Source: Bacteroidales bacterium (GTDB lineage: Bacteria; Bacteroidota; Bacteroidia; Bacteroidales; VadinHA17). Taken from it: a DNA stretch of 33,091 nucleotides. Location: the NCBI GenBank assembly GCA_003141415.1, contig PLLX01000242.1, forward strand, positions 1 to 33,091. The letters are read 5' to 3'. The position numbers and the translations under genes are program-made. Each line of letters starts with the position of its first letter. Positions within the stretch are counted from its first letter, which is position 1. The notes beneath the pieces were generated by a model that saw nothing but the letters and a program-made list of their open reading frames with translations, ran no database searches and was not told where the DNA came from. Below are positions 12,024 through 23,314 of the stretch, one piece after another.

Positions 12024-13544
12024 TTAAACAAGCACTTTTCCTGTCATATCCTTTGGTATGGGAATGCCCATTATTGTCAGTAATGTTGGAGCTACATCTG
12101 CAAGGATTCCCTCATTGATCTTTTTATAGTCATCACTTATAAGTATGCAGGGGACGGGGTTAAGTGAATGAGCCGTATTCGGGGACCCGTCTTCATTTAA
12201 TGCCTTGTCGCAATTACCATGATCAGCAATCATCAGGACATCATAACCTGATTTTCGAGCGGCTTTAATGACGGCTCCTGCACACTTATCAACAGTTTCA
12301 ACAGCTTTTTCAATTGCTTCATAAACCCCGGTATGGCCTACCATATCGCCATTTGCAAAATTCAGGCAAATGAAATCGAACTTTTCTGTTTCAATTGCTT
12401 TAATAACGGCATCTGTTACCGCGTAAGCGCTCATTTCTGGTTGCAAATCGTATGTTGCAACTTTGGGGGAAGGAATCATAATCCTCTCTTCGTTATTGAA
12501 TTTCTCCTCACGTCCACCCGAGAAAAAGAATGTAACGTGGGCATATTTTTCTGTTTCCGCAATTCTTAGCTGATGCTTTCCTGCTGCTGCAAGTACTTCA
12601 CCTATAGTATTATCAGCATTATCTTTCGGATAAATAATATGCAGACCCTTAAAGGTGGCATCATAGGGAGTCATAGTGCAGTAGTACAATGGAATGGTCT
12701 TCATCCCATTCTCAGGCATATCTTTTTGAGTAAGTGCTATGGTAAGCTCCTTTGTCCTGTCATTCCTGAAATTGAAAAAAACGATCACATCACCTTCTTT
12801 CACGATCCCAACAGGATTACCGGAATTATCAGTAACAACAATTGGTTTCATGAATTCATCAGTAACTCCGGCATTATACGATTCCTGCATACCATCTATA
12901 ATATTAACGGTAGGAGCGCCTGTTCCTTTTACAATCAGGTCGTATGCCTCTTTAATTCTTTCCCATCTTTTATCTCTGTCCATTGCGTAAAATCTTCCAA
13001 TAAATGAAGCGACTTTTCCATTAGACTTTTTAAGATGATCCAAAAGATTCTTCATAAAGCCAATTCCACTACGGGGATCCGTATCCCGACCATCGCCAAA
13101 GGCATGAATGAACACATTATTCAATCCATGTTCCTTTGTCATATCGCACAGGGCATAAAGGTGTTTATCAAGGGAATGAACACCCCCATCGGACAACAAT
13201 CCCATAAAATGAACCTGTTTGTTATTATCACGGGCATAAGAGAATGCATCTGTCAGTACCTTGTTCTTCTTGATATCTCCTGTCTTGCATTCCTTGTTTA
13301 TTTTAACCAGATCCTGATAAATAATTCTTCCTGCTCCGATATTCAGATGGCCTACTTCAGAATTTCCCATCTGCCCATCGGGTAATCCGACATCTTCCCC
13401 TGACGCATGGAGCCTGGAATTCGGATAATTATCTTTATAATAAGTCAGGTTAGGTGTTGGCACCTGACTAATTACGTCTGCTTTAGAACCATCTCCGATT
13501 CCCCAGCCATCAAGTATCATCAGTAAAGTCTTCTTGTTCTTCAT
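12024..13544 (-). CDS. gpmI: 2,3-bisphosphoglycerate-independent phosphoglycerate mutase
   Basis: The 506-aa enzyme interconverts 3-phosphoglycerate and 2-phosphoglycerate in glycolysis and gluconeogenesis, using two Mn2+ ions and a phosphoserine intermediate. The N-terminus reads MILDGWG (metal-binding Asp12). The phosphorylated serine is Ser62 in [15 protein letters not shown]. Substrate-binding phrases follow: [32 protein letters not shown] and [13 protein letters not shown]. Metal-binding motifs near the C-terminus are [17 protein letters not shown] and TAHSLNPVP. Its length is normal for the family and it appears intact. A hairpin and a possible promoter lie upstream. The start ATG (13544) gives the usual [15 protein letters not shown] opening. 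Confidence 0.96.
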
Positions 13545-13565: not shown

Positions 13566-13599
13566 TTAAACAAAAATAAAGTACCCTTGTTCAGGGTAC
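13566..13599 (-). terminator. Hairpin with T-rich tail in the gpmI leader
   Basis: A perfect 7-bp stem, GTACCCT-TGTTC-AGGGTAC (13581-13599), is followed on the - strand by TTTATTTTTGTTT. It looks like an intrinsic terminator. It may end the long transcript from the STAND gene, whose stop is about 320 bp upstream. If the promoter at 13611-13638 is used, it may instead work as an attenuator or leader hairpin of gpmI. Confidence 0.5.
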
Positions 13600-13921: not shown

Positions 13922-16900
13922 TCAGTCTCTTTTGCTTATTGATTTTATCGGTTCTATTTTAATATTAATTTTATTATTAAGACAGGTCTTTTCAAGAGGA
14001 ATATCCTTTCCAACATATACGTTCCACTCCTCCTGAGTCATGTTCCTTGAGACCATATTGCAGATATCCTGAACCAGATAGTCAACATGCGACGGTCTGC
14101 TGATAAGGTTATTTTCTCCACCGGATTCCCCGGATATGATCATCTGACCATCGGGACTGAATTGCATTACCAGGACAAATCCTTCATTATCGGTTAATGT
14201 AACGGGTGGTTCTGTAAGGTCAGTCGGATCTTTAATATTAAATATTTTGAGTTTTTTATCATTACCGGAGGTTGCCATCTGTTTCAGAGTTGTATTAAAC
14301 TGAATATCATTAACCTGCCCGCTATGAGCCTTGACCTCTGAAAGTTTTTTATGAAGGTTAATGTCCCATAATTCGACCGTACCATCGGCATCACCTATTG
14401 CGAGAAGATTGTTTTCGGGATTGAATCTGACTGCTTTAATATTTTTCCCTGCTGTTTGAATTCTGAAATTATCAGAGTTTTTTTCGGGGTTCCAAATAAC
14501 AACATTACCATCGGTACTGATACCAGCAAGATAATTTCCTTTTGAAGAGATATCAAGGGATGTTATCTCCATTAATCCAGTAGATACATTAATGCTAGTC
14601 CTTGCCGCAATGTCCCACTTAAGCACTTTCCCGTCGAGAGCTGCTGAATAGAGATATTTCCCGTCGTATGAGAAGATAAGTGATTTAATTCCTCCTTTAT
14701 GACCGTTCATCTCATATCCTATATTGTTCCCTTTTAAGGGGATCATCCTTATCGATGAATTTGAGCTCCCACATGCAAGCCAGGAAGCATCGGGACTGAC
14801 AGCCAGAACATCTATGATGTCATTTCCTGAATAAATGACCTGAAGTGTCTGATCCTTCTTCTCAAGTGACCATTTTAGGACCTGACCATCATTTCCTGAT
14901 GTAAAGAATTCGTTTTTCCCCGGTACAAACGCGATGCTTTTAATTTCACCATTATGTCCCTTATAGGACCTATAATTAATACTTCCATTTTGGAGAGCAA
15001 CGTTATACAAACCGGCATATATATCAGCATCATTATCAGTACCGTTATTTTTTTTATTGAACAGATAAGCCTGATAAGCCAGAAGGGTCTGCAGGTCTTT
15101 TTGTCCCACCAGCTGCAACGACTTTAGCGACATTGACTTTCCAATTGAAAGCATCCTAAGACGCTGGACTCCATCTCTTTGTTCTTCGGCAAGATTTTTT
15201 TGATGCAGCGCCTCTTTAGCGTTTCTTTCGGCATAAGATTTCTGGATGTCTGCTGCATTTTTCTGCTCTTTCGCCACTTCAGCATCCTGAAGAGCAACAG
15301 CGGCATTTGAATCTGAAATAGTCTTTTGTTCTAATGCAATAATTACAGATGAATCAGCTTTTACTTTTTCGTTCACTGCCTGGATCCTTTGTTTTTCAGC
15401 AAGAATGGTCTGCCTTTCAGCAGTTAATTTCTGAACATATTCAAACAATATGAATCCCAGAGCAACAAAAACGATAATCCCAAGTATCCTCGTAATCAGC
15501 CTGGTCCTCTTTATTTTCCTTTTCTGCAGGGTGTTTTTATTTTGTTCTTCTTCAAGATATGCTTTTTCGCTGGTACGAAGGTAAACCATTGCCCGCTCAA
15601 AGGCAGGATTGTATTGAACTGCCCATGAGAGTGAAGGTTTATACTGGTCGCGCCAGTTAATTGCCGGCTGCAGGTCCGGGGGTCTTAATAAACTTGTCTT
15701 GCCTTGCTGATAAAGAGCAGATGCTTCTGATAGCCGTAAATACATCTGCATTGAAGAAGCTTCATTATCTATCCAATCCTTCAGCCGATCCCACGAGCGG
15801 ATAAGACACTCGTTCTGAAGATCGATTACCGAGTTATTGGTCAGAATGACATCCTCCAGGAGTGTGATAAAGTATCGTGATGGGCCCATGAACTTTTCAA
15901 CAACATCATATAATTCTTCATTTGAACATCTGGCAATTGACTTTATTGTTTCAATATCTGATGGGTGTCGTATACCTTTATTATCTGAACCTTTCCTTGT
16001 AATCGTTTTAAACATTATCGCGCAAATCTCTTTACCGCGCTGGCTCAGTTCCTCATACACCTCCTCTGCATGAAGCAAAACAGCATTATTAATTGTCCCT
16101 GATAAGTCATAGTCGGCCATGCTTATCGGCTTGTCAGGTTCATCAAGTTCCCGCCAGAGGTTCCATGTCCTCATCATAGTATGTTGTAAAACGGGAAGCT
16201 GATCAGTCCGGTCCCTGAGGTCATCAAGAAGTGTTTCGACAAGTTTCGGGTCAATTTTTGCTCCGGCAAAATTAACGGGCCCCTCAATTATTTCCCTCCA
16301 ATTTTCCGGTCCCATATCAGGAACAAGATAATTGCTGTTATTGATCAATCCGGTAAGACCCTTGTAATGTGAGCATTCTCCCAGGTATTCAGAACGCATC
16401 GTGGCAATAATAAACACGTTTACATCGGGCTTGTTAACTGAGTTTACAAGAAAGTCAACAAATTTCACTACTGTGGCATGGGAAATATCTGCTTTCCCGG
16501 GGGAAAAGTATCTGAAAAGTTCTTCAAGCTGATCAATAATAAGAAGTACATTGTCATCATGTTTTAATATGTATTTCCTGACAACGTCAGAAAAACTACC
16601 AGGGTTATCGAGAAGATCCGAAAGAATTATATCCCGCTCAATTCTTTTCTGCGCAGAGTCATTAATTCCATTCGATAATGCAACTGCAAGATTTCCGAAC
16701 GGATCGTTCCCAGGCCTGAAAGAAATTATTCTCCAGATTGAGGAGTCCCTGATTTTTAAATTCATGATTTTTGGCAGGACTCCGCCAAAGATCAGTGATG
16801 ATTTACCGTTTCCTGAAGCGCCAATAACAGTAATATACCTGTTTTTCAGTAACTTTAAGATTACCTCATCACTCTCAGCTTTTCTTCCGAAGAACAGTTC

Positions 16901-16963
16901 GCTATCTTCTGGAGCGAAGGGTCTTAGTCCGGGGAAGGGATTGAAATCTTTAATGTCTTTCAT
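13922..16963 (-). CDS. Membrane-anchored STAND ATPase with coiled coil and C-terminal WD40 repeats
   Basis: The 1013-aa protein begins with NPFPGLRPFAPEDSELFFGR, the hallmark of the nSTAND1 ATPase group. Visible elements are Walker A GASGNGKSS (48-56), Walker B VLLIIDQLEE (139-148), a sensor-like FIIATMRSEYLGEC (184-197), a DQLPVLQH proline motif (254-261) and a winged-helix-like ECLIRSWDRLKDWI (385-398). One transmembrane helix follows (about 489-510), then an alanine/lysine/glutamate-rich coiled coil (about 511-600). At least six WD40-like repeats lie at about 664-955, for example KGHNGEIKSIAF with DGQVLKW, NGHKGGIKSLIF with DGKVLKWD, and DGTVELWD. STAND proteins are ATP-dependent switches that assemble when a sensor domain meets a signal. 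Here the ATPase and the propeller should sit on opposite sides of the membrane if there is truly one helix. No enzymatic effector domain is visible. It lies 22 bp after the transporter-like gene. Ligand and output are unknown. Confidence 0.88.
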   Translation of the reverse strand: MKDIKDFNPFPGLRPFAPEDSELFFGRKAESDEVILKLLKNRYITVIGASGNGKSSLIFGGVLPKIMNLKIRDSSIWRIISFRPGNDPFGNLAVALSNGINDSAQKRIERDIILSDLLDNPGSFSDVVRKYILKHDDNVLLIIDQLEELFRYFSPGKADISHATVVKFVDFLVNSVNKPDVNVFIIATMRSEYLGECSHYKGLTGLINNSNYLVPDMGPENWREIIEGPVNFAGAKIDPKLVETLLDDLRDRTDQLPVLQHTMMRTWNLWRELDEPDKPISMADYDLSGTINNAVLLHAEEVYEELSQRGKEICAIMFKTITRKGSDNKGIRHPSDIETIKSIARCSNEELYDVVEKFMGPSRYFITLLEDVILTNNSVIDLQNECLIRSWDRLKDWIDNEASSMQMYLRLSEASALYQQGKTSLLRPPDLQPAINWRDQYKPSLSWAVQYNPAFERAMVYLRTSEKAYLEEEQNKNTLQKRKIKRTRLITRILGIIVFVALGFILFEYVQKLTAERQTILAEKQRIQAVNEKVKADSSVIIALEQKTISDSNAAVALQDAEVAKEQKNAADIQKSYAERNAKEALHQKNLAEEQRDGVQRLRMLSIGKSMSLKSLQLVGQKDLQTLLAYQAYLFNKKNNGTDNDADIYAGLYNVALQNGSINYRSYKGHNGEIKSIAFVPGKNEFFTSGNDGQVLKWSLEKKDQTLQVIYSGNDIIDVLAVSPDASWLACGSSNSSIRMIPLKGNNIGYEMNGHKGGIKSLIFSYDGKYLYSAALDGKVLKWDIAARTSINVSTGLMEITSLDISSKGNYLAGISTDGNVVIWNPEKNSDNFRIQTAGKNIKAVRFNPENNLLAIGDADGTVELWDINLHKKLSEVKAHSGQVNDIQFNTTLKQMATSGNDKKLKIFNIKDPTDLTEPPVTLTDNEGFVLVMQFSPDGQMIISGESGGENNLISRPSHVDYLVQDICNMVSRNMTQEEWNVYVGKDIPLEKTCLNNKINIKIEPIKSISKRD

Positions 16964-16985
16964 TCTTCAATCGTGTGAGTTCAGA

Positions 16986-19900
16986 TTATTCTTCGTTATT
17001 ATCTATATATTTCAAAATCTCAATTGAATTCTCGGGGAACTGAAAAAGATATTCTTCAACTGCAATTAAAGGCAAAAAGTAAAAAGAATAATAGTGGCCC
17101 TCCTGATACTTCCTGATCAGTCTGTCGATATTTCCATTGTAAACCACATGAACTTCTTTACTCTCATTGACATCGTCTAAGGTCCAGATGATGCAACCTT
17201 CTGAAGATGCAAGGGATTCTCTGTCAAGGTTTTTAATATGTCTCATTTCGAATGCCAGCGGTAACAGCTCATCTTCAATAATTCCTCCAAAATATTTTGA
17301 AAGGAATTGCACCTTTTCGAAAAGCAATTCTTTTTTATCTGTTGTTCCATTTATTATGTTATCCAGTCTTGTTTTTATTAAATCGGGAATTCTCCCGGAA
17401 GCAGAATTATAAAGTTCAGGCTTCGACCGTGCTATCAAATTTGCAGACTCTTCCTGAATTAACTCTTCCGGACTAAAAAGAAGCGCAGTCACCGATTCAG
17501 CCAGATCATCACATTCAATTTTTGTTATACTTCTAAGTATGCAGGCTTTCGTCCATAAGCTAATGAGATTATAATCGCGGTCTAAGATATCTTCAAGGAG
17601 CTTTATGCGCGCCGGGATTTCACCGGGAAAGAATTGAAATAGATTCATAAGCTTATCCTCATCGGGAACAGCATCAAAAAGAGAAATCAATTTTGGTTTT
17701 ATCGAATCAGAAACTACTACATCTGTCATTTCGAGTGCATAAATCACGCTCTCCATCGTTTCACTCTCTAAATTCTCCTTTATCATGGCGATAGAGCCTC
17801 TATTATAAGTGATTGACAGAATATTAAAAAGAAACTTGTTCCACCTGCTGATCTCCTGGTTAATTTTTTCGAGAAGGAAATTGTCATTGTCTCGTTCAAG
17901 AGAAATTTTTGCTGACAGATACCAGGTAATTGCGCCAATAACTTCAGAAGTTAATTGATGAAGTCGTTGTTTTTCATCTTCCGATGGCTTGAAATTACAG
18001 TCAATAAGACATTTAGCAGTGATTTCCTTCAACTGTCTTGAATTTGACCAGAGACGGGAAAACAGGAATCCTTTGGTCTCCATAGTGCATGTATTTCCTA
18101 AAAGCAGCAGGATTATTTTGCTTAATTTTGTATTTCCTGAGGTAACTAAATAAAATCTGACCAATTCGCCCTCTATACCCTGACCAAAGGTTTTTAGAAC
18201 TTCAAAAGCATCTTTTGCCAAACCGGTAATACTCAGACATTCACATATTTCTGATAATAAGTCAGTTAACTTGAATTTCCCAATCATGTAAATTGCCAGT
18301 CTCTTCGATTCAATCGAGTTATCTCTTAAAAGCCGGAGGATTTCTGTTGTCTGGGGCATCCTCGTGCCTGAAAGGAGTTTTATCGCTTCGTAAATCTTTT
18401 CATTATCAGGCTTAAGCGAAGATGAATTCTTATGTAGAAACTCTACTACTTCAGCTGAGTGCTGCCGCACTTCCTCATCAAGGCCGGCATTATTTGCAGT
18501 TTTGTTAAGAACAGGCAAAAGGTTGATATCCTTTTTTGAGTAGGCATAGTCAATTATCTCTTCAAAATACCATTTATTGCTGATTTTATTCAAAACTGAA
18601 AAATTACCCGAAATAAGACTAAAATGATCTTTTCTAAAGTTAATGTAAGCTGAAAATCTGTTTTTTAAAGTATCCTGATTAATTGAAATATCTCCTCGTG
18701 ATACTTCCTGAACCGCTGTTTCAGTTGCTTTAATTATGGCAGTTCTATGCTCTTTAAATAACCTGAAAGCAACAAACATCCAGATCAGGGCAAGAATTAA
18801 CTGAAATATTGAAAAGTGAATGAGTTTGATAAAGCTGAAAAGACCAAGACCAGTAAGGACAAGTCCCGAAAAGAATACCATAATTTCATTCACAATACCA
18901 ACCATTCCTGACTGGAGTTCAGGTCTTAATTTTTTATCAATTGATTGATAGATGACTTTAAATGAAGGAAATTCTATCTGGTCCTTCAGTGACTTTGAAA
19001 TGAGTCGGCTGAATGCAAGAAGAAGGAAGAATATCATAAACCCACTTGCTGCTTCAGGTGAATAACCCATTAACAGACCAATAACTATTACAATTGCCGT
19101 AAAAATCGCAATAAGTATCGGAGAAATGACAAGACAGGTTCGAAGACCGTAGTTATGAAGAAGATATGGAAAGACAACAATTTTAGTAATCAGAATTAAA
19201 ATCATCATGCTGCCTGTGAAGAGACCCAGAAAACGGGCCATATCGGCTGCAGCAGGATATTGTTCTCTCGTAACTGCCATGAATGAATATTGAATAGCAA
19301 ACAGAGTTATAACCGAAAGAGCTGCAAAGATGACCATAGTTCTGATGTAGGGGTTTTCACGAAAAACAACAAAAAGAGATTTCCTCATTTCAGATTTTTC
19401 ATGATATTGTTCCTCACCTGAGGCAGATTGACTTAACGGAATTGGAATCATGCTCTGGATAATGGTCGCAAGGATAACAGAAGAAGCACTTACCAGTAAA
19501 ATGTTGTGTAATTGAAATTTAAAAGTCAACAGGAGAGGTATAGTGAAAGAAATAATAATTATTCCAATTATCAGTCCGGTATCAGTGTGCCCGAACAATT
19601 TATTTCCTTGTCTCACGGTTAATAACCTGTCCGCTGTTCCCCAAAAACCGAGTAAAGCAAGAATATTCAAAGGTCCAAGCATTATAAATATAATGAATAT
19701 TATCCACTTTGCAGGTGAAAAAATCATTACGGACCAAAGGAATAATGTCAGGGAACTAATGACAATCAGGTTGATGATTGCGAAGTTTCTGAATTGCACT
19801 TTTGGCTGAAACCGTAAATAAAGTGATGAAAGGATAATGCCTGTAATACCGGAAACAATATATCCCCGTGCCATCATCTTTTCATCAAAAGTGGAGAGTA

Positions 19901-20027
19901 AAAGGGAATGGGCAGTTATATCAAATGCTCCGATAAAAATCCCGAGAAAGACCGATTGTGTCAGAAGCTTTGATTTCGATTCCTCTCCGGATTCAATTCC
20001 AAGGAGAGTTAGTAACTTATCTCTCAT
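16986..20027 (-). CDS. NTT/MFS-like transporter fused to a large HEAT-like helical-repeat region
   Basis: The 1013-aa protein has 10-12 hydrophobic helices in residues 1-423. The phrase FWGTADRLLTVRQGNKLFGH, then TDTGLIIG (128-155), resembles the conserved loop of ATP/ADP-translocase-like (NTT, Npt1/Npt2) carriers and related MFS proteins. The segment FPSFKVIYQSIDKKLRPELQ (353-372), then SGMVGIVNEI (373-382), fits the same group. From about residue 425 to the end the protein is soluble and alpha-helical, with irregular HEAT-like repeats (EEVRQHSAEVVEFL, ESKRLAIYMIGKF, SLWTKACILRSI, IQEESANLIARSKPEL). Classical NTT proteins are about 500 aa, so the second half is an added domain. Whether it transports nucleotides is not known; the charged residues that define transport specificity cannot be checked by eye. 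It is the first gene of a pair with the STAND ATPase and may be its sensor or partner. An imperfect -7-like TATAATTTG lies at 20050-20042. Confidence 0.75.
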   Translation of the reverse strand: MRDKLLTLLGIESGEESKSKLLTQSVFLGIFIGAFDITAHSLLLSTFDEKMMARGYIVSGITGIILSSLYLRFQPKVQFRNFAIINLIVISSLTLFLWSVMIFSPAKWIIFIIFIMLGPLNILALLGFWGTADRLLTVRQGNKLFGHTDTGLIIGIIIISFTIPLLLTFKFQLHNILLVSASSVILATIIQSMIPIPLSQSASGEEQYHEKSEMRKSLFVVFRENPYIRTMVIFAALSVITLFAIQYSFMAVTREQYPAAADMARFLGLFTGSMMILILITKIVVFPYLLHNYGLRTCLVISPILIAIFTAIVIVIGLLMGYSPEAASGFMIFFLLLAFSRLISKSLKDQIEFPSFKVIYQSIDKKLRPELQSGMVGIVNEIMVFFSGLVLTGLGLFSFIKLIHFSIFQLILALIWMFVAFRLFKEHRTAIIKATETAVQEVSRGDISINQDTLKNRFSAYINFRKDHFSLISGNFSVLNKISNKWYFEEIIDYAYSKKDINLLPVLNKTANNAGLDEEVRQHSAEVVEFLHKNSSSLKPDNEKIYEAIKLLSGTRMPQTTEILRLLRDNSIESKRLAIYMIGKFKLTDLLSEICECLSITGLAKDAFEVLKTFGQGIEGELVRFYLVTSGNTKLSKIILLLLGNTCTMETKGFLFSRLWSNSRQLKEITAKCLIDCNFKPSEDEKQRLHQLTSEVIGAITWYLSAKISLERDNDNFLLEKINQEISRWNKFLFNILSITYNRGSIAMIKENLESETMESVIYALEMTDVVVSDSIKPKLISLFDAVPDEDKLMNLFQFFPGEIPARIKLLEDILDRDYNLISLWTKACILRSITKIECDDLAESVTALLFSPEELIQEESANLIARSKPELYNSASGRIPDLIKTRLDNIINGTTDKKELLFEKVQFLSKYFGGIIEDELLPLAFEMRHIKNLDRESLASSEGCIIWTLDDVNESKEVHVVYNGNIDRLIRKYQEGHYYSFYFLPLIAVEEYLFQFPENSIEILKYIDNNEE

Positions 20028-20177: not shown

Positions 20178-20702
20178 TCATATGTTTAGTCTTGATTTAA
20201 CTAAAGAGAATAAAAGATTGATATCAGGATCAGTTCCCTCAACAATAAGATCAGAGCGGTCATAACATTTTTCGCGATCTGCAAGCTTTTTCTCAATAAA
20301 AGACTGCAATTTATCCTTATCTAAATCTTTTATTAAAGGCCTTTTGCCATTTGATTCAGAGAGCCGGTTTTTCAACTCACCAGGTGTTAGTTTCAGGTAA
20401 AGAGTCAGCCCGTTTTCTAGCATAAAATCCATGTTATCATTGTAGCATGGTGCTCCGCCACCGGTTGAAATTATAGTATTTGAATCAGATATTAGAGTTC
20501 TGAGAAGATGAGTTTCTACTTTACGGAAATATTTTTCGCCATTTTGTGAAAAGATTTCCGGAATAGTTTTCCCGGTATGTTCTTCAATCTTTTTATCGAG
20601 ATCGATAAATGACCAGTCAAGAAGTGAAGCGAGTTTTTTTCCTGCCGTTGTCTTACCGCTTCCCATGAAACCAATAATATAGATAATATGGCTTTTAAGC
20701 AT
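20178..20702 (-). CDS. aroK: Shikimate kinase
   Basis: The 174-aa enzyme phosphorylates shikimate at the 3-hydroxyl using ATP, the fifth step of chorismate synthesis. Walker A is GFMGSGKTT (11-19). FIDLDKKIEE supplies the Mg2+/shikimate-binding aspartates, STGGGAPCY is the shikimate-binding glycine loop, NGKRPLIKD is the lid with its arginine, and a C-terminal LADREKCYDRSDLIV carries the conserved arginine. I chose ATG at 20702, which overlaps the parC stop as TGATG; a GTG one codon upstream (20705) is a less likely alternative. The coupling shows that aroK is the last gene of the parE-parC-aroK operon. Confidence 0.95.
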   Translation of the reverse strand: MLKSHIIYIIGFMGSGKTTAGKKLASLLDWSFIDLDKKIEEHTGKTIPEIFSQNGEKYFRKVETHLLRTLISDSNTIISTGGGAPCYNDNMDFMLENGLTLYLKLTPGELKNRLSESNGKRPLIKDLDKDKLQSFIEKKLADREKCYDRSDLIVEGTDPDINLLFSLVKSRLNI

Positions 20703-23314
20703 CACAACTCAAGCTTCATCTGTGCAGGATCGTCATGGATAACAGGTTGCTGAGGTTCCTCATCTGATTTTTCTTCCTTTGTTAGCTCAACTTCCTTTTT
20801 AATAACGGGCTCAATTTCCTGGATATTTTCCACCATATAACTGGTCATCCTCTTACCTTTTGCTTTGTAGCTCTTAACGCCAATAAATTCAGCAACTTCA
20901 ATTATCTCATTATCCCTGCCCTTATGCTTGCCTCCGAAATAAATTTCAAAACGCGGATATTCTACCTCTGTGAGACTTATAAGTTTTGATTCAGCATCTT
21001 CATTTATAAAACACTGTGGTTTCTCGGACTCTTCAAGTATAAATCGTTTCACGTAGTAGAATTTTTGCTCAGCATCCCAGTAAATGACTGAATAGACCTT
21101 CCCTGGCCTGAACTTCTCAATTATAAGGATGTTATCTTCAAAATGGTTTGATAGATCAAAACCAACGATCCTGAAAAAGCCATTTTTGGTAATCACCAGT
21201 ATTTTATCATCAGCACTGAATTCACCGAGGAAAAGACCTCTGCAGTCGACATTAAGTCTGAATACTGCATCATCAAACCAAATCTTTCTTCCGCCCAGTG
21301 TTGAGAGACCTTTTTCTTTCAGACTAATTTTATTGACCGCATTCTTTGTGAGGATGTTACCCATCGATGATTTTCCCTTTATGTTCATCTGACCAAAATC
21401 GAATTCGAACATAAGTTTTTTAAGTCTTGCCTTGGGTTTATGATGGACTTTTATTACCTCTGCCTCACCATTCGGATTCACACTTAAATATACTATTTTA
21501 GAACCTGGAGTCCCCCTCGTCAGATTATACTCTTTATCGCGTGTTAGACCTGAAATGGCGCAACGTTTTGCAAGCAAGGGCCCATCCTTACCATCCTGAT
21601 AAACAATATTGTAAATAGTACGCCCATCATTTTTAAGAAAGATCTGGGCATAGAGAATATCATTTCCAACAAATACCTTATTGGCAACCTTTGTTATAAG
21701 ATATACTCCATCCTTTCTTATAACGATAACGTCATCAATATCAGAGCAATCGCAGATGAATTCATCTTTTTTCAGACCGGTACCGATAAATCCCTCCTTA
21801 TAATTTATATAGAGTTTCGCATTATTGGCCACTACTTTCGTAGCTTCAATTGTATCAAAACTTCTTAGTTCCGTTTTTCTTTCCTTGCCTTTACCGTACT
21901 TTTTCTTTATCTGCCTGAAATAGTTGATAGCGAATGGAATAATATTGCTAAGATGATTTTTGACCTCTTCAAGCTCTGTTTCGATTCCTTTTATATGTTC
22001 GTCGGCTTTTTTTACATCGAATTTTGAGATTCTCTTTATCTTTATTTCAGTAAGCTGGATAATATCCTCCCTGGTAACTTCCCTCAATAAAAGTTTCTTA
22101 AACGGATCAAGTCCTTTGTCAATTGCAATTATGACGGCTTCCCATGTTTCGCACTCTTCGATATCGTGATAAATTCTCTTCTCAATGAATATTTTCTCAA
22201 GAGACGACATATGCCATTCTTCCCGGAGCTCCCTGAGCCTGATCTCGAGTTCCTTTTTCAGAAGATCAACAGTTCTGTCAGCAGAATGCTTCAGTATGGA
22301 ACTAACCCCCATAAATGAGGGCTTATCATCGACAATAACGCAGGTATTTGGCGAGACTGAATATTCACAATCTGTAAGCGCATACAATGCATCGATCGTT
22401 TTATCGGGCGATACGCCAGGGACTAAATGAACGACGATTTCGACATTTGCCGATGTATTATCATCGATCTTTCTAATCTTGATTTTCCCTTTTTCGTTTG
22501 CCTTTATAATTGATTCAATGAGAGTGGAAGTCGTTTTCCCAAATGGAATCTCAGTTATAATGAGAGCTTTTTTATCAACCTTCTCGATCTTTGCTCTTAC
22601 CTTAATTACGCCTCCGCGTTGTCCTTCATTATACTTTGAAACATCCACCATTCCTCCTGTTGGAAAATCAGGATAAATAACAAATTCCTTCCCCAGCAGA
22701 TAATCTATTGTGGCATCAATAAGCTCATTAAAATTATGTGGCAGAATTTTTGAAGCCAGCCCCACGGCAATACCTTCACCACCAAGGGCAAGAAGCAAAG
22801 GAAACTTCACAGGAAGCGTAACAGGTTCGCTATTTCGCCCGTCATACGATAATTTCCACTCCGTTGTCTTATGGTTAAATATTACTTCCAGCGCAAATTT
22901 TGATAGTCTGGCTTCTATATATCTTGGAGCTGCAGCACCATCACCCGTAAGTAAATTTCCCCAGTTACCCTGAGCATCAACCAGGAGGTCTTTTTGTCCG
23001 AGCTGAACCAGTGCATCACCTATTGAAGCATCACCATGAGGATGGAATTGCATCGTATGCCCGATAATATTAGCCACTTTATTAAAACGTCCGTCATCCA
23101 TCTTCTTCATTGAATGGAGTATACGTCGCTGGACAGGCTTCAGTCCATCATGAAGGTGGGGGACAGCTCTTTCAAGAATAACATAAGATGCATAATCAAG
23201 AAACCAGTCCTGATACATGCCCGATAAAGCTGTTACGGAATGAAGAGCTATGGGTCCCGACGGAACTATTTCTGTTCTGTCTTTGTTGGTAATTTCAAGA
23301 TCCTCTTCTTCCAT
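20702..23314 (-). CDS. parC: DNA topoisomerase IV subunit A
   Basis: The 870-aa subunit cuts and rejoins DNA as part of the ParC2ParE2 complex that decatenates daughter chromosomes. The N-terminal breakage-reunion domain contains YASYVILERAVPHLHDGLKP, VQRRILHSM, HPHGDASIGD (about 91-100) and the catalytic tyrosine Tyr132 in APRYIEARL. A long coiled-coil arm (about 420-475) follows, then a C-terminal beta-pinwheel region with TKNGFFRIVGFDLSNHFED. An acidic/proline tail (about 840-870) ends in KLEL. The layout and partnership with parE point to topoisomerase IV rather than gyrase. At the position of the quinolone-contacting serine (next after HPHGD) this protein has alanine. The gene starts 32 bp after parE. 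Confidence 0.93.
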   Translation of the reverse strand: MEEEDLEITNKDRTEIVPSGPIALHSVTALSGMYQDWFLDYASYVILERAVPHLHDGLKPVQRRILHSMKKMDDGRFNKVANIIGHTMQFHPHGDASIGDALVQLGQKDLLVDAQGNWGNLLTGDGAAAPRYIEARLSKFALEVIFNHKTTEWKLSYDGRNSEPVTLPVKFPLLLALGGEGIAVGLASKILPHNFNELIDATIDYLLGKEFVIYPDFPTGGMVDVSKYNEGQRGGVIKVRAKIEKVDKKALIITEIPFGKTTSTLIESIIKANEKGKIKIRKIDDNTSANVEIVVHLVPGVSPDKTIDALYALTDCEYSVSPNTCVIVDDKPSFMGVSSILKHSADRTVDLLKKELEIRLRELREEWHMSSLEKIFIEKRIYHDIEECETWEAVIIAIDKGLDPFKKLLLREVTREDIIQLTEIKIKRISKFDVKKADEHIKGIETELEEVKNHLSNIIPFAINYFRQIKKKYGKGKERKTELRSFDTIEATKVVANNAKLYINYKEGFIGTGLKKDEFICDCSDIDDVIVIRKDGVYLITKVANKVFVGNDILYAQIFLKNDGRTIYNIVYQDGKDGPLLAKRCAISGLTRDKEYNLTRGTPGSKIVYLSVNPNGEAEVIKVHHKPKARLKKLMFEFDFGQMNIKGKSSMGNILTKNAVNKISLKEKGLSTLGGRKIWFDDAVFRLNVDCRGLFLGEFSADDKILVITKNGFFRIVGFDLSNHFEDNILIIEKFRPGKVYSVIYWDAEQKFYYVKRFILEESEKPQCFINEDAESKLISLTEVEYPRFEIYFGGKHKGRDNEIIEVAEFIGVKSYKAKGKRMTSYMVENIQEIEPVIKKEVELTKEEKSDEEPQQPVIHDDPAQMKLEL

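Follow-up and report, generated by a model that had tools for sequence, protein, structure and literature searches.

Here, we describe a pair of adjacent genes in a 33,091-nucleotide stretch of a Bacteroidales bacterium (GCA_003141415.1, contig PLLX01000242.1, positions 1-33,091, forward strand; this whole stretch is called the window below) that represents a stripped-down version of a larger operon found in relatives. Gene A encodes a membrane domain with an NTT-type fold joined to HEAT repeats, and gene B encodes a STAND ATPase joined, through a membrane helix and a coiled-coil stalk, to a WD40 propeller. To the reading of the pair as the inner-membrane remnant of an envelope-spanning STAND signalling operon we give about an even chance.

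Gene A: 16986..20027, minus strand; 1013 amino acids (aa), NTT-fold membrane domain, HEAT repeats and small C-terminal domain
A-B gap: 16964..16985, minus strand; 22 bp
Gene B: 13922..16963, minus strand; 1013 aa, nSTAND1 ATPase, membrane helix, coiled coil and WD40 propeller

The original prediction, made from the window sequence, had reported two 1013-codon genes separated by 22 bp, and this was confirmed at the coordinates listed. Both open reading frames start with ATG, and on the minus strand A comes first and B second.

Conservation of the gene pair

Among 117 genomes of the window's family, A was detected in 85 and B in 82; 77 genomes have both genes and 27 have neither. In all 73 pairs that share a contig (72 genomes), B lies downstream of A in the same orientation and, because the arrangement recurs in every one of them, the adjacency is a conserved unit and not due to chance, as the original prediction had proposed for the two proteins. 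A directly precedes B in 53 of these pairs, and the other 20 have a gap of the size of a phosphatase gene; 71 of the 72 genomes carry a single pair and one (G049) carries two. For none of the eight family genomes with A only is B demonstrably absent: the contig ends first in G018, G026 and G028 and a cut-off B follows in G110 (L231-L234), and the remaining four (G002, G043, G045 and G050) were judged from match coordinates and contig ends.

The full operon in relatives

The named loci analyzed here are the best 80 of 163 matches; they overlap with the family genomes (L131 is G077), so that the two sets are not independent samples. In the 59 named loci for which the question was decidable, B lies within 5 kb on the same strand in 54. 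Of the named loci, 49 have a complete A and extend for at least 9 kb beyond it downstream; 44 of these share the gene order A, phosphatase, DUF4062 (in 35 loci), B, outer-membrane barrel and lipoprotein, with median gaps of 3-21 bp between these genes. The five exceptions are L144, in which B is truncated, L167, L195, which is cut by the locus end and in which B comes later, after an additional phosphatase gene, L207 and L209. Records of the full operon come from Bacteroidales, Marinilabiliales, Salinivirgaceae, Flavobacteriales, Crocinitomicaceae, Cytophagales and others, and all are metagenome bins except Perlabentimonas gracilis (L186).

The operon phosphatase is a HAMP-SpoIIE protein, the L050 copy of which matches SiaA best in NCBIfam (1.5e-73; 248.5 bits, below the cut-off of 700). 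DUF4062 is described, in the available part of a preprint (PMC13174449), as a TIR-like NADase family; the glutamate that we take as catalytic from the alignment is missing in some of the 10 rows. The barrel gene that follows B belongs to PF13568. The operon propeller protein is a predicted lipoprotein because all 13 aligned sequences have a cysteine after the hydrophobic stretch at the N-terminus. Its gene is followed by that of a giant protein, and a type IX secretion system (T9SS) sorting tail was present in four of the five giants checked.

One locus (L054:11702-13036; G010, one contig, 68% complete) carries a STAND gene of 444 aa after A, phosphatase and DUF4062, probably a broken copy. 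In three distant loci (L117, L119 and L120), the NTT-HEAT gene lies beside sensor-propeller proteins of about 1250 aa, one ending in a SpoIIE domain and two in a histidine-kinase ATPase domain, and the end of a B-like WD40 gene is located at the other edge of each stretch. The neighbours of A in these distant relatives agree with a signalling role.

Repeated reduction of the operon

The window locus lacks the phosphatase, DUF4062 and the outer-half genes (barrel, lipoprotein and giant). The two-gene module of the original prediction is real as a pair, and the larger parent operon seen in relatives was not visible from the window. Within the family, a lipoprotein gene is found within 8 kb in none of the 53 pairs with A and B as direct neighbours and in 15 of the 20 with a phosphatase-sized gap; the remaining five involve contig ends (G019, G070, G076 and G078) or a truncated B (G010). 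This joint loss of the phosphatase and the outer half holds in the family and does not hold in six class loci (L111-L116) considered below.

On the tree of the HEAT part, six changes between full and reduced forms are needed, five of these forced by supported branches. The tree of B, from which the 444-aa protein of L054 was left out, agrees in outline, with five changes for the A+B-only label, two for HEAT-only and one for half-NTT. The tree itself is blind to gain versus loss but, because the full form is so widely spread, we read the changes as at least five losses of the phosphatase and the outer half. Loss of T9SS was considered as the cause of the outer-half loss and ruled out, given that sprA is kept in 116 of the 117 family genomes (0 of 14 control genomes). 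The NTT domain has disappeared from 14 loci (13 genomes), in which B adjoins a HEAT protein of 575-594 residues; in another genus, about half of the NTT domain is left in the three loci examined.

The search of the window genome (82% complete) for missing parts covered DUF4062, the lipoprotein and the phosphatase. No match to DUF4062 was found, an absence that is provisional at this completeness. A search with one relative's lipoprotein produced no match in the same incomplete genome, and the lipoprotein profile yielded one partial match (contig C55, model positions 103-256 of 397, E 3.9e-16). Eight SpoIIE matches cover only the C-terminal part of the query phosphatase; four such matches lie in open frames of more than 1000 aa (G000 contigs C2, C132, C160 and C248).

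Decay of the NTT domain of gene A

Gene A residues 1-440: 18708..20027, minus strand; NTT/MFS-like membrane domain, eroding in the window lineage, with 47 of 61 signature residues left
Gene A residues 455-915: 17283..18665, minus strand; HEAT-repeat solenoid, which stays beside B where the NTT domain is lost
Gene A residues 916-1013: 16989..17282, minus strand; small alpha/beta domain, perhaps a degenerate cyclic nucleotide (cNMP)-binding domain

The window copy of A matches no Pfam family, TLC (PF03219) included at 0.01, and its assignment comes from structure prediction and relatives. In Foldseek, the best matches of the AlphaFold model (pLDDT 82, pTM 0.74) are structures of AtNTT1 and of Chlamydia NTT1, with AtNTT1 as the top solved match (9j3m, E 3.1e-7, target-based TM 0.74), and a profile match to 9j3n was obtained at 1.2e-12; as modelled, the N-terminal 440 residues have an NTT-type fold. 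In a 16-row alignment of relatives, Pfam matches are to HEAT_2 in 12, MFS_1 in 9, cNMP_binding (PF00027, in the C-terminal domain) in 2 and TLC in 1. Residues after the NTT domain form a helical solenoid in the window model without a HEAT_2 match in the window copy, in which only a small alpha/beta domain is apparent at the C-terminus. The NTT/MFS-like membrane part and the large helical region that had been proposed from the window sequence are both recovered in this model.

The NTT signature consists of 61 columns at least 95% conserved in 43 distant reference rows, which are mostly but not all visible full operons; truncated rows and script-listed loci were left out of the reference sets for the signature and for the comparison of B columns. 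At least 88% of the signature is kept in all 20 phosphatase-bearing family rows and at most 81% in all 16 reduced rows, including the window. The ratio of nonsynonymous divergence (dN) in NTT to that in HEAT is 0.40-0.85 in eight full pairs and 1.27-1.53 in six reduced pairs from three lineages; in the window lineage, NTT evolves faster than HEAT, the reverse of the phosphatase-bearing relatives. Selection is still acting on NTT in the reduced pairs (ratio of nonsynonymous to synonymous divergence, dN/dS, 0.21-0.31), and the HEAT part in the window's clade has dN/dS of 0.15-0.22. Decay of NTT accompanies loss in five of five independent tree pairs.

The six class loci L111-L116 come from three near-complete genomes, each with two A-B-barrel-lipoprotein copies, one with DUF4062 and one without. 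In all six, B is still accompanied by barrel and lipoprotein, the phosphatase is missing from its place between A and B, and 38-44 of the 61 signature residues are left in the NTT domain. Conversely, L198 and L207, with A and phosphatase and no B in view, keep 61 and 60 of 61, values that lean high given that both loci are in the reference set.

Residues important in AtNTT1, according to the available parts of two papers (PMC4256464 and PMC10654386), include E245, E385 and K527. These were mapped onto A by profile alignment at about 15% identity, assuming a chain offset of 84 as deduced from the letters that match, and correspond to P119, Q246 and V384 in the window; K155 of AtNTT1 falls outside the aligned stretch. 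None of 59 members of A has the original residue at any of the three sites: the E245 site is proline in all 59, the E385 site is glutamine in 33 and histidine in 16, with no glutamate, and the K527 site is alanine in 53, valine in 5 and isoleucine in 1. Because all three equivalents are replaced throughout, even well-conserved members of A are probably not canonical ATP/ADP translocases.

Length of the stalk of gene B

Gene B residues 9-422: 15698..16939, minus strand; nSTAND1 ATPase, Walker A GASGNGKSS, Walker B-like LLIIDQLEE
Gene B residues 487-515: 15419..15505, minus strand; single membrane helix, hydrophobic segment
Gene B residues 516-604: 15152..15418, minus strand; alanine-heptad coiled-coil stalk, from heptads and modelled helix
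Gene B residues 665-957: 14093..14971, minus strand; WD40 propeller of about seven blades, predicted periplasmic

Pfam matches of B are to nSTAND1 (PF20703, E 1.3e-81, 275.6 bits against a cut-off of 27.1) and WD40. The AlphaFold model has a pTM of 0.48, at which the arrangement of domains is unreliable, and only its secondary structure was used, namely a helix at 525-617 and about seven blades at 665-957. Together with hydropathy, these results match the STAND core, single membrane helix, coiled coil and WD40 propeller described in the original prediction. Seven lysines or arginines occur in the 15 residues before the membrane helix and three after it; because of this bias, the ATPase is predicted to be cytoplasmic, which suggests a periplasmic propeller.

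The stalk was measured as the stretch from residue 480 to 605 of the window's B. It spans 126 residues in the window. A length of 147 is seen in each of the 15 family rows with a full operon and in 29 of the 37 remaining named rows, so that 44 of 52 full rows have this length, compared with 4 of 27 reduced rows (median 133; Mann-Whitney p 1e-12, relatedness ignored). The length is also 147 in all six of the class loci L111-L116, in which the outer half is retained and the phosphatase is not. In 78 of 79 rows, the difference from the window is a whole number of heptads, the exception being L051. The stalk thus behaves like a ruler as judged from the aligned lengths. From the combination of a decayed NTT domain with a 147-residue stalk in L111-L116 and a kept NTT domain in L198 and L207, it follows that the integrity of NTT goes with the phosphatase and the length of the stalk with the outer half. 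The eight class B genes without A (L219-L226) have stalks of 142, 149 or 156, that is, in steps of seven out of register with 147.

Chromosomal setting

Upstream neighbours: 20178..23314, minus strand; shikimate kinase and topoisomerase IV/gyrase A, the chromosomal address, outside the system
Downstream neighbour: 12024..13544, minus strand; phosphoglycerate mutase (iPGM), the other edge of the address

Among 40 family stretches (L031-L070), shikimate kinase or parC is present in 35 and iPGM in 23; some stretches stop short of iPGM and, for five of these loci, additional stretches reveal it behind the giant or immediately behind B. A terminator-like hairpin with a T-rich tail is located between B and iPGM in the window (13581-13599), and such hairpins are no more frequent here than in shuffled sequences.

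Proposed mechanism and alternative explanations

From the observed genes and their order, the repeated losses, the NTT decay and the stalk lengths, we infer a topology, a set of contacts, a direction of signalling and outputs as follows. In the full operon, a stalk of set length would hold the B propeller in the periplasm near the outer membrane, and the barrel, the propeller lipoprotein and, where seen, the T9SS-secreted giant encoded next to B would make up the outer-membrane side. A change at the outer membrane would be relayed along the stalk and across the inner membrane to the STAND ATPase in the cytosol, onto which the HEAT arm of A may dock. The carrier-like domain of A may work together with the SiaA-like phosphatase, and the phosphatase and the frequent TIR-like DUF4062 protein would be outputs or partners. 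The window retains the HEAT and STAND half; the stalk is shorter there, and the carrier domain is losing its signature.

Several observations weigh against this scheme. The topology of B rests on charge bias and hydropathy, and the contacts of B with A and with the outer-membrane proteins are putative. B is not in the expected place in L167, L198, L207 and L209, and two of these (L167 and L209), which also lack the phosphatase there, keep 60 of 61 NTT signature residues. The original prediction would have been undermined by homologues found mostly apart; this is not the case inside the family, and outside it the picture is mixed: among 295 class genomes, 10 have A (at E 1e-60), 14 have B (at E 1e-170) and 6, including the window genome, have both, so that B occurs without A in 8 and A without B in 4 (one at a contig edge). 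Furthermore, ten distant NTT-like loci (L121-L130, one of 6.3 kb) have no STAND neighbour. Drift in the reduced loci is not limited to the NTT domain, with kept conserved columns of B falling from 0.88 to 0.76 in the ATPase and from 0.92 to 0.75 in the stalk (0.94 to 0.86 in the propeller), and the finding that HEAT columns differ little between full and reduced rows (p 0.06) comes from a comparison of 10 columns only. The tree-aware sign test for NTT gives p 0.0625, the minimum attainable with five pairs; that for the stalk has four supported pairs, of which about three agree and none opposes (median p 0.25), and the 147 stalk is kept in two A+B loci, one HEAT-only and one B-only locus. Finally, among the eight class B loci without A, a barrel is near B in six and none is near in two; because of the six, the link of B to the barrel may be older than that to A. 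In these six stretches (L220 and L222-L226), B-type genes lie near one or two barrels, a lipoprotein-family gene is near three of the six, and no NTT-HEAT gene is present.

The original prediction was that A, as a nucleotide or metabolite carrier or a transceptor, moves or senses a substrate and thereby switches B on or off. The NTT fold recovered by structure search, the position of A directly before B in 53 of 73 pairs and the stronger constraint on NTT than on HEAT in full operons all speak for a carrier, but we consider this explanation unlikely, and control of the ATPase by the carrier probably does not operate in the window: the NTT domain is absent from 14 loci that keep HEAT and B, evolves fast and is decaying in the window's lineage, its integrity follows the phosphatase and not B (decayed in L111-L116; kept in L198 and L207, both reference rows), and the three charged residues of AtNTT1 are kept in 0 of 59 members. 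Alternatively, the operon might drive assembly or mechanical work at the outer membrane, such as display of the giant, with the STAND protein as energy source and not as switch. The sorting tails on four of five adjacent giants and the set length of the stalk would fit, whereas the phosphatase and DUF4062 genes point to signalling and A-B persists in reduced loci that have no outer-half genes; we see a small chance that this explanation is correct.

STAND and TIR-like DUF4062 proteins act in defence, as stated in the available part of PMC13174449, and DUF4062 adjoins B in most full operons, so that an anti-phage or self-killing system, in which the STAND protein would detect an invader and set off an effector, was also considered. 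It was rejected as first choice and appears improbable: PADLOC identifies no system, with no match for A and only WD40 stretches matched in B (the best one covering roughly 80 residues of a HEAT-ARM model with 1972 positions), DUF4062 was not matched in the incomplete window genome, the housekeeping address recurs in 35 of 40 family stretches, the pair is nearly always single, unlike mobile islands, and it is associated with outer-membrane genes. The pair in the window could also be a non-functional leftover, given the decay of NTT and the shortening of the stalk. This is very improbable in view of the intact Walker A motif in 27 of 27 reduced B rows, the low HEAT dN/dS in the window's clade and the retention of the pair in at least five reduced lineages; because of this retention and constraint, we conclude that the HEAT-STAND half does something in the window. 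More tentatively than the remnant reading itself, the operon may represent a new class of machine, in which a STAND ATPase reads the outer membrane through a stalk of set length and a propeller on a transporter-derived HEAT scaffold, and which has been repeatedly stripped to a HEAT-STAND core with a function of its own.

Relation to known systems

Both halves of the pair have precedents. The fusion of NTT with HEAT repeats, with or without a cyclic nucleotide-binding domain, was described by Major, Embley and Williams in 2017 (PMC5381601), the available part of which calls it broadly conserved and its function unknown, with 43 Bacteroidetes sequences in the NTT set. Gene A has NTT and HEAT in the same order, followed by what is perhaps a degenerate cyclic nucleotide-binding domain; as points of difference, WD40 is mentioned zero times in the text of that paper, and NTT is decaying in the window's clade and gone in 14 related loci. 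B shares the nSTAND1 core and WD40 propeller of nSTAND1 NTPases (a term from PMC8195603) but its ATPase and propeller are connected through a membrane helix and a heptad stalk of set length, and in relatives it adjoins outer-membrane genes and not the conflict domains treated in the available part of that paper.

The operon phosphatase recalls SiaABCD of Pseudomonas aeruginosa, as far as the sources available describe it, through the below-cut-off match of L050 to SiaA; however, SiaB, SiaC and SiaD are missing among the typed neighbours, and the window locus has no phosphatase. Similarly, the Swarozyc DUF4062 NADases of PMC13174449, seen in part, resemble the protein encoded beside B in most full operons, but here the putative catalytic glutamate is missing in some rows and the gene is absent from the window locus. 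In the same source, DUF4062, STAND ATPase and WD40 are combined in one chain in NWD1/TEP1; in the operon (L067:8355-9779; 35 of the 44 full operons among the named loci), the DUF4062 protein has a gene of its own, which immediately precedes that of the STAND-WD40 protein. For the pairing of NTT-HEAT with STAND-WD40, or the operon, no description was found in open-licence full texts, in line with the original prediction, which knew of no described two-component system of exactly this composition.

Relatives of the window comprise a natural mutant series, namely full operon, outer half without phosphatase, A+B only, half-NTT, HEAT-only and B only, which suggests that NTT depends on the phosphatase, stalk length on the outer half and HEAT on the ATPase. 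For NTT-HEAT fusions in free-living bacteria, the series suggests signalling rather than ATP uptake. STAND ATPases are mostly regarded as cytosolic alarm switches; if the topology proposed here is true, Bacteroidota would use a STAND ATPase as a receptor that reaches across the periplasm.

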